Positions 4,315 through 8,664 of a stretch of DNA of 10,157 nucleotides are shown here, one piece after another (position 1 is the stretch's first letter; each line of letters begins with the position of its first letter). This DNA is from Actinomycetota bacterium. Its GTDB lineage: Bacteria; Acidobacteriota; Blastocatellia; Chloracidobacteriales; Chloracidobacteriaceae. The stretch lies in NCBI GenBank assembly GCA_013298335.1, contig JAAFHI010000057.1, positions 1 through 10,157 on the forward strand. The letters run 5' to 3'. The notes beneath the pieces were generated by a model. It saw only the letters and a list, made by a program, of their open reading frames with translations, did not search any database and was not told the DNA's origin. Made by a program: the position numbers and the translations under genes.

Positions 4315-4390
4315 CTGGCTACTGGCTACTGGCTACTGGCTACTGGCTACTGGCTACTGGCTACTGGCTACTGGCTACTGGCTACTGGCT
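4315..4390. repeat. Heptanucleotide tandem repeat, ~11 copies
   Basis: About 76 bases of uninterrupted CTGGCTA units (10.9 copies) with no visible mismatch, ending about 80 bp before the tRNA-operon promoter. Seven-base perfect arrays are typical of slipped-strand variable loci and of heptamer STRR repeats known from cyanobacteria. The reading frame through it (LLATGYW repeats) is not a real protein. Confidence 0.95.
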
Positions 4391-4419: not shown

Positions 4420-4500
4420 TGAGATGTTTTTATTTAATTTTCTATTTTTTCTATTTTTCTTCAAGAAAAGTGTTGACGGATTCTATTTTCTGTCCATAAT
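4420..4500 (+). promoter_or_regulatory. Stable-RNA-type promoter with UP-like element
   Basis: TTGACG (4473-4478), a 16-bp spacer and CATAAT (4495-4500, five of six). Upstream, 4420-4460 is almost pure A/T with T-tracts, like an UP element. The bases between the -10 and the predicted +1 (~4507) are GGACGC, a GC-rich discriminator. UP element, 16-bp spacing and GC-rich discriminator together are features of rRNA/tRNA promoters under stringent control in well-studied bacteria. It faces the leader ORF and tRNA array. Confidence 0.75.
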
Positions 4501-4548
4501 GGACGCATTCGGTCATCCGACCGGCATCTTGAGAAGGAGTTCACAGCC

Positions 4549-4722
4549 ATGACGATGTTCATTCAACTGCCATTCGTCGTCTCCCCCGTACCGGGGTCGA
4601 GATCGGCTGTCCAGAGTGCGAGCTTCCTCAGGAGTCGTTCCGAACAATCGGAACGGGTGCAGCGGCGCGTTCTGAATTCGGAACGCCAGTATTCAAGCAA
4701 ATATTCCAATAATTCGACTTAG
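4549..4722 (+). CDS. 57-residue leader ORF of the tRNA operon
   Basis: ATG at 4549 has AAGGAG at 4534-4539, 9 nt upstream, and a strong promoter ~70 bp before it. The N-terminal 27 residues are hydrophobic and ordinary (MTMFIQLPFVVSPVPG...). The last 30 residues (28-57) are unusual: 26 are Ser(8), Arg(6), Glu(3), Gln(3), Asn(3), Tyr(2) or Lys(1), the seven amino acids carried by the ten tRNAs downstream. By codon count alone (22 of 61 sense codons) about 11 would be expected. Codons 45-55 read GAA CGC CAG TAT TCA AGC AAA TAT TCC AAT AAT, giving a codon readable by eight of the ten array tRNAs. The TAG stop is 6 nt before the first attenuator hairpin. A regulatory leader peptide is inferred; no homology is recognised. 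Confidence 0.7.
   Translation: MTMFIQLPFVVSPVPGSRSAVQSASFLRSRSEQSERVQRRVLNSERQYSSKYSNNST
4637..4684 (+). promoter_or_regulatory. Alternative-pairing ladder inside the leader ORF
   Basis: Four related 7-mers: GTTCCGA (4637-4643), TCGGAAC (4648-4654), GTTCTGA (4669-4675) and TCGGAAC (4678-4684). First with second and third with fourth give two hairpins; second with third, or first with fourth, give competing ones. The last segment overlaps codons 44-46, just where the array-cognate codon cluster starts, so ribosome position would decide which stems form. Confidence 0.45.
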
Positions 4723-4728
4723 CATCGC

Positions 4729-4748
4729 GGGAGCGGCTTCCCGCTCCC
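4729..4748 (+). promoter_or_regulatory. Attenuator segments 1 and 2 (protector hairpin)
   Basis: GGGAGCGG (4729-4736) and CCGCTCCC (4741-4748) make a perfect 8-bp stem with a CTTC loop, starting 6 nt after the leader stop codon. There is no T-run, so it is not itself a terminator. Segment 2, CCCGCTCC (4740-4747), is also perfectly complementary over 8 bp to GGAGCGGG (4782-4789) in the terminator, giving a competing antiterminator. Confidence 0.7.
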
Positions 4749-4781
4749 TGAATCAAGCGTATCCACACGCGAAGACTCCAC

Positions 4782-4822
4782 GGAGCGGGCGACCTCGGGC
4801 GAGGTGCCCGCTCCTTCGTTTT
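4782..4822 (+). terminator. Rho-independent terminator/attenuator upstream of the tRNA array
   Basis: GGAGCGGGC (4782-4790) pairs with GCCCGCTCC (4806-4814); ACCTC (4792-4796) with GAGGT (4801-4805) extends the stem under a GGGC loop. TTCGTTTT follows, with a further six T at 4828-4833. It stands between the operon promoter and the first tRNA, as an attenuator would. Its 5' half is the target of the competing pairing from 4740-4747. Confidence 0.8.
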
Positions 4823-4851
4823 GGAGGTTTTTTCGGTGGTGTGACGTTTTC

Positions 4852-4933
4852 GCGGAAGTGGTCGAGCGGCAATGACGGCGGTCCGTAAAACCGCCCCCTT
4901 CGGGGTACGGGGGTTCGAGTCCCTCCTTCCGCA
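4852..4933 (+). tRNA. tRNA-Tyr(GTA)
   Basis: Acceptor GCGGAAG/CTTCCGC, anticodon stem GCGGT/ACCGC with loop CCGTAAA, a long variable arm (CCCC-TTC-GGGG) as expected for bacterial class II Tyr, T-loop TTCGAGT, A73. Position 33 is C where U is near universal. CCA is not encoded (ATCA follows the acceptor). Confidence 0.87.
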
Positions 4934-4991
4934 TCAATTGTTTCTTTTGAATTTAATTTGAATTTAGTTGGAATAAGTGTGTTCAATTTTC
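4934..4991 (+). other. AT-rich spacer in the tRNA array
   Basis: The longest gap in the array (58 bp). It contains a 10-bp direct repeat, TTTGAATTTA, at 4946-4955 and 4957-4966. It might hold a secondary promoter or a processing site; no confident -35/-10 pair is visible. Confidence 0.4.
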
Positions 4992-5087
4992 GGAAGCGTC
5001 GCCTATGCGGCAAGGGCAGCCGGGTGCTAACCGGTCGAGCCGGAGAAATTCCGAGTTCTGGGGGTTCGACTCCCTCCGCTTCCGCCA
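4992..5087 (+). tRNA. tRNA-Ser(GCT)
   Basis: Acceptor GGAAGCG/CGCTTCC, anticodon loop GTGCTAA with U33 and anticodon GCT (reads AGC/AGU), long variable arm typical of Ser, T-loop TTCGACT, discriminator G73 and encoded CCA. Confidence 0.95.
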
Positions 5088-5094
5088 GTCGTCC

Positions 5095-5181
5095 GGAAGG
5101 TACGCCGAATCGGTCCGGCACCGGTCTTGAAAACCGGCTCCCCACGAGGGAATGAGGGTTCGAATCCCTTGCCTTCCGCCA
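5095..5181 (+). tRNA. tRNA-Ser(TGA)
   Basis: Acceptor GGAAGGT/GCCTTCC (one T-G pair), D stem GCCG/CGGC, anticodon stem CCGGT/ACCGG with loop CTTGAAA (anticodon TGA), long variable arm with CCC/GGG stem, T-loop TTCGAAT, G73 and encoded CCA. Only 7 bp separate it from the preceding Ser gene. Confidence 0.95.
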
Positions 5182-5191
5182 GTTGATTTGC

Positions 5192-5265
5192 GGGTTCGTA
5201 GCTCAGGGGAAAAGAGCGCCGGTTTGCGAAGCCGGAGGCCGGAGGTTCGAATCCTCCCGAACCCA
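5192..5265 (+). tRNA. tRNA-Arg(GCG)
   Basis: Acceptor GGGTTCG/CGAACCC, D stem GCTC/GAGC, anticodon stem CCGGT/GCCGG with loop TTGCGAA giving anticodon GCG, T stem GGAGG/CCTCC, A73, CCA not encoded. Most bacteria read CGC/CGU with ACG (edited to inosine); a G34 Arg tRNA is uncommon. Confidence 0.9.
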
Positions 5266-5280
5266 TCAGGAAGTTGAAAT

Positions 5281-5357
5281 GGCGCGTTGGTGCGAATGGT
5301 CAAGCCGCCGGTCCTTCAAATCGGAGATTACGGGTTCGAGTCCCGCACGCGCCGCCA
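5281..5357 (+). tRNA. tRNA-Glu(TTC), atypical
   Basis: Acceptor GGCGCGT/ACGCGCC, G73 and encoded CCA are sound. The only good anticodon stem, CCGGT/ATCGG, leaves loop CCTTCAA with anticodon TTC and C at position 33 instead of U. The D arm pairs poorly (best GGT/GCC with a one-base linker) and the T stem has an A-C mismatch at its base. It could be a functional divergent gene or a decaying one. Confidence 0.75.
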
Positions 5358-5362
5358 CTTCT

Positions 5363-5439
5363 GGAACGGTAGCTCAATTGGTCAGAGCTTCGGATTCTTA
5401 ATCCGGAGGTTGTGGGTTCGAGTCCCACCCGTTTCACCA
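5363..5439 (+). tRNA. tRNA-Lys(CTT)
   Basis: Acceptor GGAACGG/CCGTTTC, D stem GCTC/GAGC, anticodon stem TCGGA/TCCGG with loop TTCTTAA (anticodon CTT), T stem GTGGG/CCCAC, A73 and encoded CCA. Shares its T arm and flanks with the next Lys gene. Confidence 0.95.
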
Positions 5440-5446
5440 TTTTTTC

Positions 5447-5522
5447 GGGATGGTAACTCAATGGTCAGAGTACCGGCCTTTTAAGCCGGGAGTTGTGGGT
5501 TCGAGTCCCACCCGTCCCACCA
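5447..5522 (+). tRNA. tRNA-Lys(TTT)
   Basis: Acceptor GGGATGG/CCGTCCC, D stem ACTC/GAGT, anticodon stem CCGGC/GCCGG with loop CTTTTAA (anticodon TTT), T arm identical to that of tRNA-Lys(CTT), A73, CCA encoded. Likely a tandem duplicate whose anticodon has diverged. Confidence 0.95.
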
Positions 5523-5526
5523 TTTT

Positions 5527-5601
5527 TGCGATGTAGCTCAGTGGTAGAGCAACCGCCTGTTAAGCGGATGGTCGCAGGTTCGAATCCTGCCATCGCAGCC
5601 A
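5527..5601 (+). tRNA. tRNA-Asn(GTT)
   Basis: Acceptor TGCGATG/CATCGCA with U1-A72 and G73, as in other bacterial Asn tRNAs; D stem GCTC/GAGC; anticodon loop CTGTTAA (anticodon GTT) on stem CCGC/GCGG with an A-A at the stem base; T-loop TTCGAAT; CCA encoded. Confidence 0.94.
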
Positions 5602-5605
5602 TTTT

Positions 5606-5680
5606 TGCGGGATCGTCCAATTGGCAGGACACCGGCCTTTGAACCCGGTCGTGGAGGTTCGAATCCTTCTCCCGCAGCCA
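5606..5680 (+). tRNA. tRNA-Gln(TTG)
   Basis: Acceptor TGCGGGA/TCCCGCA with U1-A72 and G73, both usual for Gln; D stem GTCC/GGAC; anticodon loop CTTTGAA (anticodon TTG) on CCGG/CCGG with a C-C mismatch next to the loop; T stem GGAGG/CCTTC; CCA encoded. Confidence 0.93.
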
Positions 5681-5693
5681 GCTTCACTCCTCC

Positions 5694-5768
5694 GGCCCGG
5701 TAGCTCAGCGGAAACAGAGCACCTGAATTCTACTCAGGTCGTCGCGGGTTCGAATCCCGCCCGGGTCT
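5694..5768 (+). tRNA. tRNA-Arg(TCT)
   Basis: Acceptor GGCCCGG/CCGGGTC, D stem GCTC/GAGC, anticodon stem CCTGA/TCAGG with loop ATTCTAC (anticodon TCT), T stem GCGGG/CCCGC. The discriminator base reads T, unusual for Arg, and CCA is not encoded. Last gene of the array, followed by CTCTTTT. Confidence 0.9.
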
Positions 5769-5886
5769 CTTTTCCCGAAGCCGTTCGACACATGTATTAA
5801 GGATCGCGCGCGTACGATGAACTGGTCTTCAAAGTTCCGGGCAGGGAAACGGCTGGCGCGCGCCGCCGAACCGGTGCCCAAATAGA

Positions 5887-7281: not shown

Positions 7282-8664
7282 TCAGGCGTCCGGTCCGTTT
7301 GGAAGGGGCGTTCTGACGCCGTATTCGGTGAGTTTCCGGCGGAGGGTCGAGAGGGAGATGTCGAGCGTCTGGGCGGTGGCGGTGAGGTTTCGGCCACCCT
7401 TTTCGAAAATCCGAAGGATGTGGGTGCGCTCGATGTCGGCCAGCCGGACGGATTCATTCTCATTCGGGGCCCGGTTTGAAGTCGGGGTATTGGCGGGTTG
7501 ATTGAACACCAGCCGAGAGGGAAACAGTTCCGGGCCGTCCTGGAGAAAGAGGCAGCGCTCGATGATATTGCGGAGTTCGCGAACATTGCCGGGAAAAGTG
7601 TACTGCGCGAGGCGTTCCACCTCTCCTCGTCCGAGTTCGAAGTGATGGCCGGGGGCGAGGGTGGAGATGAAGTGGCGGCAGAGTTCCGCCAGATCGTCGA
7701 GTCGTTCACGCAGCGGCGGGAGGTGAATCAGGATGACGTTCAGGCGATAGAACAGGTCGCGCCGGAACGTGCCCGCGTCGATGGCCTGCGCCGGGTCGAG
7801 GTTGGTGGCGGCCATTACCCGGACGGAAACGGACCGGATGACGTCCCCGCCGATCCGGCGGATGGACCGGTCCTCCAGGACGCCGAGGAGTTTCGACTGG
7901 AGTTGCAGCGGCATTTCCGCCACTTCATCGAGAAACAGCGTGCCGCCCTCGGCGAGTTCGAACAGCCCCTTGCGGGTGGCGTGGGCACCGGTGTAGGCCC
8001 CTTTTTCGGCCCCGAAGAGTTCGGCTTCGATGAGCGATTCAGGCAGGGCGGCGCAATTGACGCCGATAAAGGGTTTCTCGGCGATCCGGGAAGCATAGTG
8101 GATGGCCTTCGCCACGTAGCTTTTGCCGGTTCCGGTCTCGCCGGTGATGAAGACCCGCGCGTCCACCGAGGCGGCCCGGTCGATGAGCCGCCGGATTTCC
8201 GAAAACCGTTCGCCGGACCCGACGATCAGCGCCGTCTCGCTCTCCCGGTGGGCATGGAATTTCTGGACCTCCTCGACTTTTTCAAGTTCGGTCGTGTGGA
8301 GGAGCCGCTCGACGGCATGGCGGACCTCCTCGACCTCCACCGGCTTGGACAGATAGTCGTGAATTCCCGATTTCAGTGCCTGAACCGCGTTTTCATAGCT
8401 CGGAAACGCGGTCAGGAGCAGGATTTTTACCGATTCGCTGGAGCCAAGCAGGTCCGGCACCAGCGACAGGCCGTCTCCGTCGGGAAGGTGATTGTCGAGC
8501 AGGGCAATGTCGAACGGCGTCCGGCGAATCAGGACGCGCGCCGCCTCAATGCCGGAAGCGATGGAGACGGTAAACCCCTGGGCGCTGAAGACATCGGCGA
8601 GAACCTCGCGAAAAAAAGGTTCGTCGTCGAGGATGAGCATGCGTTTTGGAGCCGAGTTGAGCAT
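7282..8664 (-). CDS. NtrC-family sigma54-dependent response regulator
   Basis: A 460-residue DNA-binding activator. The receiver (~8-122) has Asp13/Asp14, phospho-acceptor Asp57 (ALLDNHLPDGDG), Thr85 and Lys107. The AAA+ domain (~143-370) has Walker A GETGTGKS (175-182), the sigma54-contacting loop as GAYTGA (222-227; the common form is GAFTGA), Walker B TLFLDE (242-247), the sensor-I stretch VMAATN and arginine-finger region RRDLFYRLNV (301-310). The Fis-type helix-turn-helix is at ~412-451 (HILRIFEKGGRNLTATAQTLDISLSTLRRKL). ATG 8664 lies 7 bp after the kinase stop, so the two form one operon and a cognate pair. Its likely target is the -24/-12 promoter directly downstream. The physiological signal is unknown. 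Confidence 0.97.
   Translation of the reverse strand: MLNSAPKRMLILDDEPFFREVLADVFSAQGFTVSIASGIEAARVLIRRTPFDIALLDNHLPDGDGLSLVPDLLGSSESVKILLLTAFPSYENAVQALKSGIHDYLSKPVEVEEVRHAVERLLHTTELEKVEEVQKFHAHRESETALIVGSGERFSEIRRLIDRAASVDARVFITGETGTGKSYVAKAIHYASRIAEKPFIGVNCAALPESLIEAELFGAEKGAYTGAHATRKGLFELAEGGTLFLDEVAEMPLQLQSKLLGVLEDRSIRRIGGDVIRSVSVRVMAATNLDPAQAIDAGTFRRDLFYRLNVILIHLPPLRERLDDLAELCRHFISTLAPGHHFELGRGEVERLAQYTFPGNVRELRNIIERCLFLQDGPELFPSRLVFNQPANTPTSNRAPNENESVRLADIERTHILRIFEKGGRNLTATAQTLDISLSTLRRKLTEYGVRTPLPNGPDA

Follow-up and report, generated by a model that had tools for sequence, protein, structure and literature searches.

The trp, his and thr operons are controlled by leader-peptide attenuators that sample one to three amino acids, and in the ampC and pyrBI operons of Escherichia coli the presence of a ribosome on the leader increases read-through. 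The armZ gene of Pseudomonas aeruginosa encodes an anti-repressor acting on an efflux pump, and complete translation of its leader, PA5471.1, is described as leading to termination (PMC13041342). For tRNA gene clusters, the trn operon of Anabaena is reported to be run by the repressor TrcR and to be tied to translational stress, with TrcR described as lineage-restricted to cyanobacteria and two of their phages (PMC10272220). In this study we examined contig JAAFHI010000057.1 of a bacterium of the family Chloracidobacteriaceae (10,157 nucleotides, hereafter the window, and the whole contig of a genome assembly of 5.1 Mb that is 90.5% complete), on which a leader open reading frame (ORF), a ladder of four RNA arms ending in a terminator hairpin, and ten tRNA genes follow one another. 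We infer from the sequence that the leader controls the array, and our analysis made it likely that this control is exerted by a ribosome-dependent transcription attenuator with a codon-sampling leader. It is also probable, with somewhat less assurance, that the leader has been selected for content and not for sequence, namely to include a codon for each of the amino acids served by the tRNAs of the operon, and that one ribosome passage would test the whole charged-tRNA supply, gating the array in this way throughout the class.

The leader ORF of the window (4549..4722, 57 codons with a TAG stop in the ORF listing; all features of the locus lie on the + strand) follows the Shine-Dalgarno sequence AAGGAG (4534..4539), 9 nt 5' of the ATG. 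The last 41 codons form a biased stretch (4597..4719) in which 32 encode Ser, Arg, Glu, Gln, Tyr, Lys or Asn, and 26 of the last 30 residues belong to this set, YSREKNQ. The ten tRNA genes downstream (4852-5769) serve exactly these seven amino acids, and Cys, Asp, His and Trp are absent from both the leader and the array. None of 87,587 background 30-mers, drawn from 248 ORFs of 200 or more amino acids in the fetched loci (mechanical ORFs, not curated genes), reached 26 residues in the set, the maximum in 200,000 random draws was 25, and only 7 of the 77,520 possible seven-amino-acid sets matched at least 26 of the last 30 residues. Frame +1 of the same DNA scored 0.46 for the set, which averaged 0.40, with a maximum of 0.53, in the last 30 residues of the 35 other leaders. 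A preliminary description of the window had reported the ribosome site, the 57-codon ORF with its 26 of 30 array amino-acid residues, and ten tRNA genes for seven amino acids; the ribosome site was seen in the sequence, the bias of the ORF was upheld by the background comparison, and the tRNA genes by tRNA gene calls and by Rfam scans, one of which found nine of the ten tRNAs and another all ten.

The leader ORF and ladder occurred together at 36 loci, spread over 34 genomes of a single class, probably Blastocatellia. A tRNA-similarity search with the array recovered accessory tRNA clusters in the same class, and 14 of the 15 arrays of at least six tRNA genes found by tRNA similarity alone carried the leader and ladder upstream; many of these 15 began Tyr-(Trp)-Ser-Ser-Arg. 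Because most of the remaining loci were located through their ladder, arrays without a ladder are under-sampled. Ladder matches of at least 30 bits numbered 37 and were reduced to 36 by dropping L181, in which arm 1 was not placeable by script and which had no tRNA in the stretch examined. At least one tRNA gene followed the ladder at 33 of the 36 loci, tRNAs for at least six amino acids followed it at 30, and 14 loci had 20-38 tRNA genes. Among a sample of 396 genomes of the phylum, searched with stricter filters, the ladder covariance model matched 30. The 23 strong matches all belong to the class, and the 7 weak ones come from outside it. The weak matches were rejected as array loci, as 6 of the 7 genomes had no tRNA in the stretch examined (the seventh, G145, was outside this count).

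The distance from the leader stop codon to arm 1 was 5-7 nt at all 36 loci (6 nt in 29, 5 nt in 5 and 7 nt in 2; for L038 a motif search gave 4 nt and the model alignment, which was used, a value within 5-7 nt). A strict search for a Shine-Dalgarno-led ORF of 37 or more codons ending 4-7 nt before arm 1 succeeded at 26 of the 36 loci, against 36 of 14,400 random anchors (0.25%) and 5 of 2448 anchors placed 20-120 nt away (0.2%). The leaders ranged from 43 to 93 codons, and 26 of the 36 had GGAG, GAGG or AGGA before the start under the strict rule. Starts were picked by script, and seven (L041, L047, L132, L133, L140, L141 and L178) were reset by hand where the picked start looked internal or poor. 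The ratio dN/dS was 0.30-0.85 in 14 of the 15 leader pairs with a computed ratio and 1.15 in the other, and a sixteenth pair had a pN/pS of 0.67; the comparison supports selection on the leader ORF as a reading frame. Ratios mostly below 1, and the alike N-termini of many leaders in genus g13, would also suit an ORF that encodes a working small protein, with the ladder and tRNAs forming an ordinary stable-RNA operon with a leaky terminator. We regard this explanation as very improbable, because amino acid identity fell to 0.23-0.44 in the five pairs from different genera while amino-acid coverage was kept, the window ORF (the one leader scanned) had no Pfam match, and the fixed distance from stop codon to hairpin is left unexplained by it.

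Comparison across loci supported content as the conserved property of the leader, the rule being that each amino acid served by the tRNAs of the operon is encoded in it at least once. All 20 amino acids occurred in 23 of the 36 leaders, when 2.2 were expected from background ORFs, and every array amino acid was found in the leader for 29 of the 30 arrays with at least six amino acids, when 4.6 were expected from the same background (P about 7e-15 over 18 genera, treated as independent). On the same DNA extents, and hence at the same lengths, the five other frames covered 7 to 11 of the 30 arrays, and base-shuffled DNA covered 8.8 on average with a maximum of 15 in 500 runs. Leader content also tracked array content over 35 loci (L131, whose contig ends 1.3 kb past the ladder, was dropped; the start Met was excluded; the second locus of G011 formed its own group). 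Amino acids carried by the array were present in the leader in 428 of 429 cases, with 1 missing, and those not carried in 218 of 236, with 18 missing. When arrays were shuffled among the 35 loci, 10.0 carried amino acids were missing on average, and one or fewer was reached in 0 of 5000 shuffles. The tracking P was 0.0002 without the window, 0.002 for arrays with at least six amino acids and 0.034 for the latter without the window, and drawing one locus from each of 21 groups kept the result. Trp was missing from both leader and array in L033, L040 and L038, as was Val in L034, L032 and L137, and four loci with at most one tRNA each had one to three amino acids missing from both in the same way. 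Where the array carried tRNAs for 0-3 amino acids, the leaders missed 1, 3, 2, 2 and 0 amino acids, and the 29 other leaders missed 0.24 on average (excluding the window, which misses 4).

Beyond coverage, the leaders showed little further adjustment to their arrays. A strongly biased leader was present in just one of eleven small arrays, that of the window (z 3.6), and the ten others had no enrichment past coverage. Sampling at the level of codons was rejected, as array anticodons read 546 of 595 codons against 537 by synonymous chance (30 loci), which is little beyond what the amino acids provide. The leaders held 1192 distinct codons against 1090 (sd 12) predicted from the codon usage of their loci, a surplus for which weak codon selection could be an alternative cause. 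The checks set by the preliminary description, whether relatives keep the ORF and whether its content tracks the array, were thus passed, by the recurrence of the leader ORF, the fixed ladder distance and the ladder at 36 loci and by the missing counts given above. Its emphasis on a biased leader was right for the window but did not extend to relatives with large arrays, the leaders of which are unbiased and hold nearly every amino acid. Its proposal that a ribosome reports the supply of charged tRNAs and sets read-through was supported by the tracking, although the geometry is not trp-like.

In the window, the ladder consists of arm 1, GGGAGCGG (4729..4736), which starts 6 nt past the stop codon; arm 2, CCGCTCCC (4741..4748), with arm 1 and arm 3 as alternative partners; a middle hairpin, M, between arms 2 and 3 (4749..4781); arm 3, GGAGCGGGC (4782..4790), which may pair with arm 2 as an antiterminator or with arm 4 as a terminator; arm 4, GCCCGCTCC (4806..4814), which completes the terminator hairpin; and the T-rich tract TTCGTTTT (4815..4822). 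Comparison of the helices supports two mutually exclusive states, in which the four arms would form either 1:2 together with the terminator 3:4, or the antiterminator 2-M-3. In helices 1:2 and 3:4, 98.0% of cells were paired and 6 of 17 pairs had changed on both sides, and 0 of 500 shuffles scored as high on any of the helix measures. Arms 2 and 3 were complementary in 98.8% of cells. Two positions of 3:4 that lie outside the 2:3 stretch carried changes in both partners at 16 and 15 of the 36 loci, and the arm-3 side of the 2:3 stretch was almost frozen, as could be expected if arm 3 must fit two partners; another constraint could equally have this effect. Hairpin M was more stable than base shuffles over the 36 loci (mean z -1.69; 26 of 36 below -1, p 2.9e-11; window z -1.1), and in a chimera test native flanks paired better in 30, 31 and 30 of 36 loci at three lengths (p 2e-6 to 2e-5), the values for the window varying with the length used (+0.49, -1.90 and -3.27). 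What is conserved in M is its structure more than its sequence, although this is not clear for all groups, and M would serve to bring arms 2 and 3 together. A separate feature was noticed by eye in L034 (8254-8387, - strand) and its g13 relatives, where AACATCGAAAGTAA right after arm 2 is complementary to TTACTTTTGATGTT right after arm 4; in a read-through transcript the two could pair into a long helix that encloses the terminator, perhaps a processing site.

The position of the leader determines which arm a ribosome could mask. Because the ORF ends before arm 1, a ribosome bound at the stop codon is predicted to favour the antiterminator. In predicted folds with the stop codon in the A site, the probability of 2:3 pairing exceeded 0.5 and that of 1:2 pairing was 0.00 in all 36 loci. 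With the last sense codon in the A site, 2:3 remained above 0.5 in all 36 and 1:2 was at most 0.18, and 2:3 exceeded 0.5 in 24 of 36 loci at two codons back and in 9 of 36 at 40 codons back. This folding preceded the seven start changes, and positions before the start then in use were handled with that start as the edge. In the model that we tentatively favour, a finished leader would be the ON state. A ribosome would read the leader as RNA polymerase transcribes the ladder; with all sampled charged tRNAs at hand, the ribosome would reach the stop codon in time and cover arm 1, arm 2 would pair with arm 3, and transcription would continue into the array. If any one charged tRNA was short, the ribosome would lag, 1:2 would form, 3:4 would pair, and transcription would stop. 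In logical terms the leader would then be an AND gate with its amino acids as inputs, allowing extra tRNAs only when those amino acids are usable, and control of the array would be a local counterpart of growth-rate or stringent control.

Two other ways of operating the same arms were considered. In an attenuator of the classical trp/his type, stalling at control codons would free arm 2, and a ribosome at the stop codon would cover arm 2 and lead to the terminator. The four-arm logic is alike, and the leader codons of the window match the operon products at 26 of 30 positions, as such a system would have it. A ribosome at a stop codon covers about 10 nt beyond it, and arm 2 of the window begins 18 nt past the stop (4722 to 4741), beyond its reach. 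The geometry is not of the trp type because the ORF ends before arm 1, so that a stop-bound ribosome masks arm 1, not arm 2; arm 1 lies past the stop codon at every locus, and the leader codons do not overlap it. A classical arrangement is contradicted by this geometry and is very improbable.

The same attenuator could also work with the opposite sign, a shortage switching the array on, which we consider unlikely, if far from negligible. A brisk ribosome would be gone before arm 3 was made, leaving 1:2 and then the terminator to form, and a moderately slowed ribosome would still be at the stop codon when arm 3 emerged, so that the antiterminator formed and the missing tRNAs were supplied. Leaders that cover what their arrays can supply are what such negative feedback would produce. 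The trn array of Anabaena, described as silent in normal growth, is reported to be induced by translation-blocking antibiotics, although its control goes through the repressor TrcR (PMC10272220), and armZ of Pseudomonas is described as being turned on by ribosome stalling in PA5471.1 (PMC13041342). However, the opposite sign needs a narrow timing window. A ribosome stalled far back in the leader would not mask arm 1, and no part of the leader turned out to compete for this arm: an arm 0 within the ORF that would capture arm 1, making stalling the ON state, was rejected because native and codon-shuffled ORFs behaved the same (p 0.077, 0.92 and 0.43). A hairpin suspected by eye within the end of the ORF, H0, was likewise rejected (mean z -0.12; 5 of 36 below -1).

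Several observations limit the case for a ribosome-controlled array of the kind that we favour. The promoter-like site of the window, TTGACG-16-CATAAT (4473..4500, a 10/12 match), and its terminator stood among chance numbers of similar sites, with 4 promoter-like sites found against 2.7 expected and 11 terminator-like sites against 12.7 expected; the T tract is modest (6 T in 12), and a boxA-like site was not present in the window. As both scans of the window were at chance, these parts gain weight only from relatives. A promoter-like site of at least 9/12 lay within 160 nt 5' of the leader start at 32 of the 36 loci, and the sequence TTTGA(A/C/G)AA, which we take to be boxA-like, lay at most 120 nt after the terminator at 26 of 36, both counts being without a shuffle control. 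A site similar to the latter precedes the 16S rRNA gene in G025; the other three of four genomes yielded no 16S gene. The promoter and terminator that had been proposed at the outset recur in relatives, the former as a promoter-like site and the latter within the ladder, but do not stand out in the window. Scans at chance level would also be expected if a low-complexity ORF and a dispersed palindrome lay beside a tRNA cluster by accident. This explanation is scarcely credible and was refuted by comparison: a hairpin pattern of the ladder had exactly one match each in 24 of 98 genomes, that of the window included, against 1 match of the reversed pattern in 98, the leader and ladder recur together at 36 loci, and the frame and shuffle controls did not reproduce the coverage.

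Other such points concern the leader, the arrays and the helices. Over its whole length the window leader is less extreme, with 34 of 57 residues in the set (P 0.0039), and the anticodons of the array strictly read just 28 of its last 41 codons and 29 of 57 overall. Starts as picked by script would give coverage at 25 of 30 arrays, as L041, L047, L133 and L140 would fail too, and L035, the sole exception with the starts used here, has a leader without Tyr although its array carries Tyr. In genus g13, eight arrays serving 6-13 amino acids go with leaders that hold 19-20, so that coverage is not a tight fit there, and the share of array-set residues was not raised in the g13 leaders (z -0.2 to 1.2). 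The array L046 (G093) and the four-tRNA group L044 have no ladder, and L177, L180, L175, L178 and L130 keep leader and ladder with zero or 1-3 tRNAs. The 2:3 pairing was invariant and thus gives no covariation signal of its own, and the chimera test was near zero or positive at some lengths in groups f4b, f4c and f4d. Mean predicted energies of the excised helices were -15.5 kcal/mol for 1:2, -21.6 for 2-M-3 and -27.1 for 3:4; with arm 1 free, 1:2 and 2:3 are near balance at equilibrium and 3:4 is the most stable, and for this reason the switch must be kinetic.

The array of the window comprises, by tRNA gene call, tRNA-Tyr(gta) (4852..4933), tRNA-Ser(gct) (4992..5087, also from Rfam), tRNA-Ser(tga) (5095..5181), tRNA-Arg(gcg) (5192..5265), tRNA-Glu(ttc) (5281..5357), tRNA-Lys(ctt) (5363..5439), tRNA-Lys(ttt) (5447..5522), tRNA-Asn(gtt) (5527..5601), tRNA-Gln(ttg) (5606..5680) and tRNA-Arg(tct) (5694..5769). 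The genome of the window has 32 tRNAs outside the array, and six of the ten array anticodons (Tyr gta, Lys ctt, Lys ttt, Asn gtt, Arg gcg and Arg tct) had no copy elsewhere in it. Outside the array, this 90.5% complete genome yielded no tRNA of any kind for Tyr, Lys or Asn, nor any for Phe, His or Ile. An incomplete assembly is the likelier cause of these absences; alternatively, some tRNAs may come from the array alone here, and it could then not be switched off completely. The relative G001 has 43 tRNAs outside its array, and these cover all of the amino acids that the array carries. One tRNA outside the array of G001 was called by ARAGORN as Pyl(cta), i.e., with an amber-reading anticodon, and a SeC(tca) tRNA was called by the same program at the end of the array in L032. 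By eye, a long hairpin-like stretch ending TTTTTT precedes tRNA-Tyr in L046 (2620-2740), and stretches like it sit between the terminator and the first tRNA in some other loci. In L042 (about 7760-8110, oriented), the leader start region is duplicated around an N run, perhaps through an assembly fault.

The neighbours of the array in the window are cupin, MarC, Lrp/AsnC, response-regulator, NtrC-like and histidine-kinase genes, identified by Pfam matches, and an acetate kinase-like gene, identified by eye. Mobile-element families were absent from the Pfam matches of the seven window ORFs scanned, and for one window protein the best named relative came from a Holophagales bacterium (52% identity). 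No Rfam family, a T-box leader included, was matched at gathering score within 4420-4850. About ten tandem copies of the 7-bp unit TACTGGC were seen by eye at 4315-4390, directly 5' of the promoter region, and the Rfam family Acido-Lenti-1 RNA was matched at 2423-2469 on the - strand. Arrays in the relatives sit on contigs of up to 790 kb with partly conserved neighbours, and L177 and L180 share upstream neighbours with array-bearing loci. A viral origin was rejected: 19 IMG/VR stretches matched the hairpin pattern, none with a tRNA in the stretch, and their best ladder score was 20 bits. Phage records among the matches listed (20 of 1432) covered at most 18% of the query, inside the tRNA part, and plasmid tRNA matches included Priestia and others.

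Our searches of open-licence papers found no leader-peptide or attenuation control of a tRNA array or operon, and no account of supernumerary tRNA array switching outside Anabaena. The main text on the Anabaena array (PMC10272220) is without the words leader, terminator or attenuat-, and the main texts on Mycobacterium tRNA arrays contain no attenuat-, with no mention of a leader in one (PMC5966550) or of a leader peptide in the other (PMC12803027). The loci described here resemble the Anabaena trn operon and the Mycobacterium tRNA array units, as those sources present them, in being dense tRNA gene clusters; a tRNA array unit is defined by at least 20 tRNA genes and a density of at least 2 per kb (PMC5966550), and the window, with 10 genes, falls below that number. 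Like the armZ leader PA5471.1 as described, the leader here would set a four-segment attenuator by its state of translation and answer translation trouble, unlike it in the tRNA array and the amino-acid coverage rule, neither of which was seen in that account (PMC13041342).

The ability to gate tRNA synthesis in this manner would provide a concrete switch for the tRNA arrays of 34 genomes, and leader coverage that tracks array content could be used as a signal to look for such sensors elsewhere. In the sign that we favour, a ribosome on the leader would raise read-through as in ampC and pyrBI, which to our knowledge have neither a codon-sampling leader nor a tRNA array. By sequence, the locus carries the features of a leader-peptide attenuator: a translatable ORF with a ribosome site between promoter and terminator, mutually exclusive helices, and leader codons for what the operon serves. 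It shares with the trp, his and thr operons a leader ORF rich in operon-related codons and a mutually exclusive antiterminator and terminator, and differs from them in that the ORF stops before arm 1, with the stop codon 5-7 nt upstream of it throughout, that the output is tRNA and not enzymes, and that the number of amino acids sampled by the leader ranges from seven to twenty. Leader-peptide attenuation would thereby be extended from one or a few amino acids to as many as all of them, and applied to the supply of tRNA itself.

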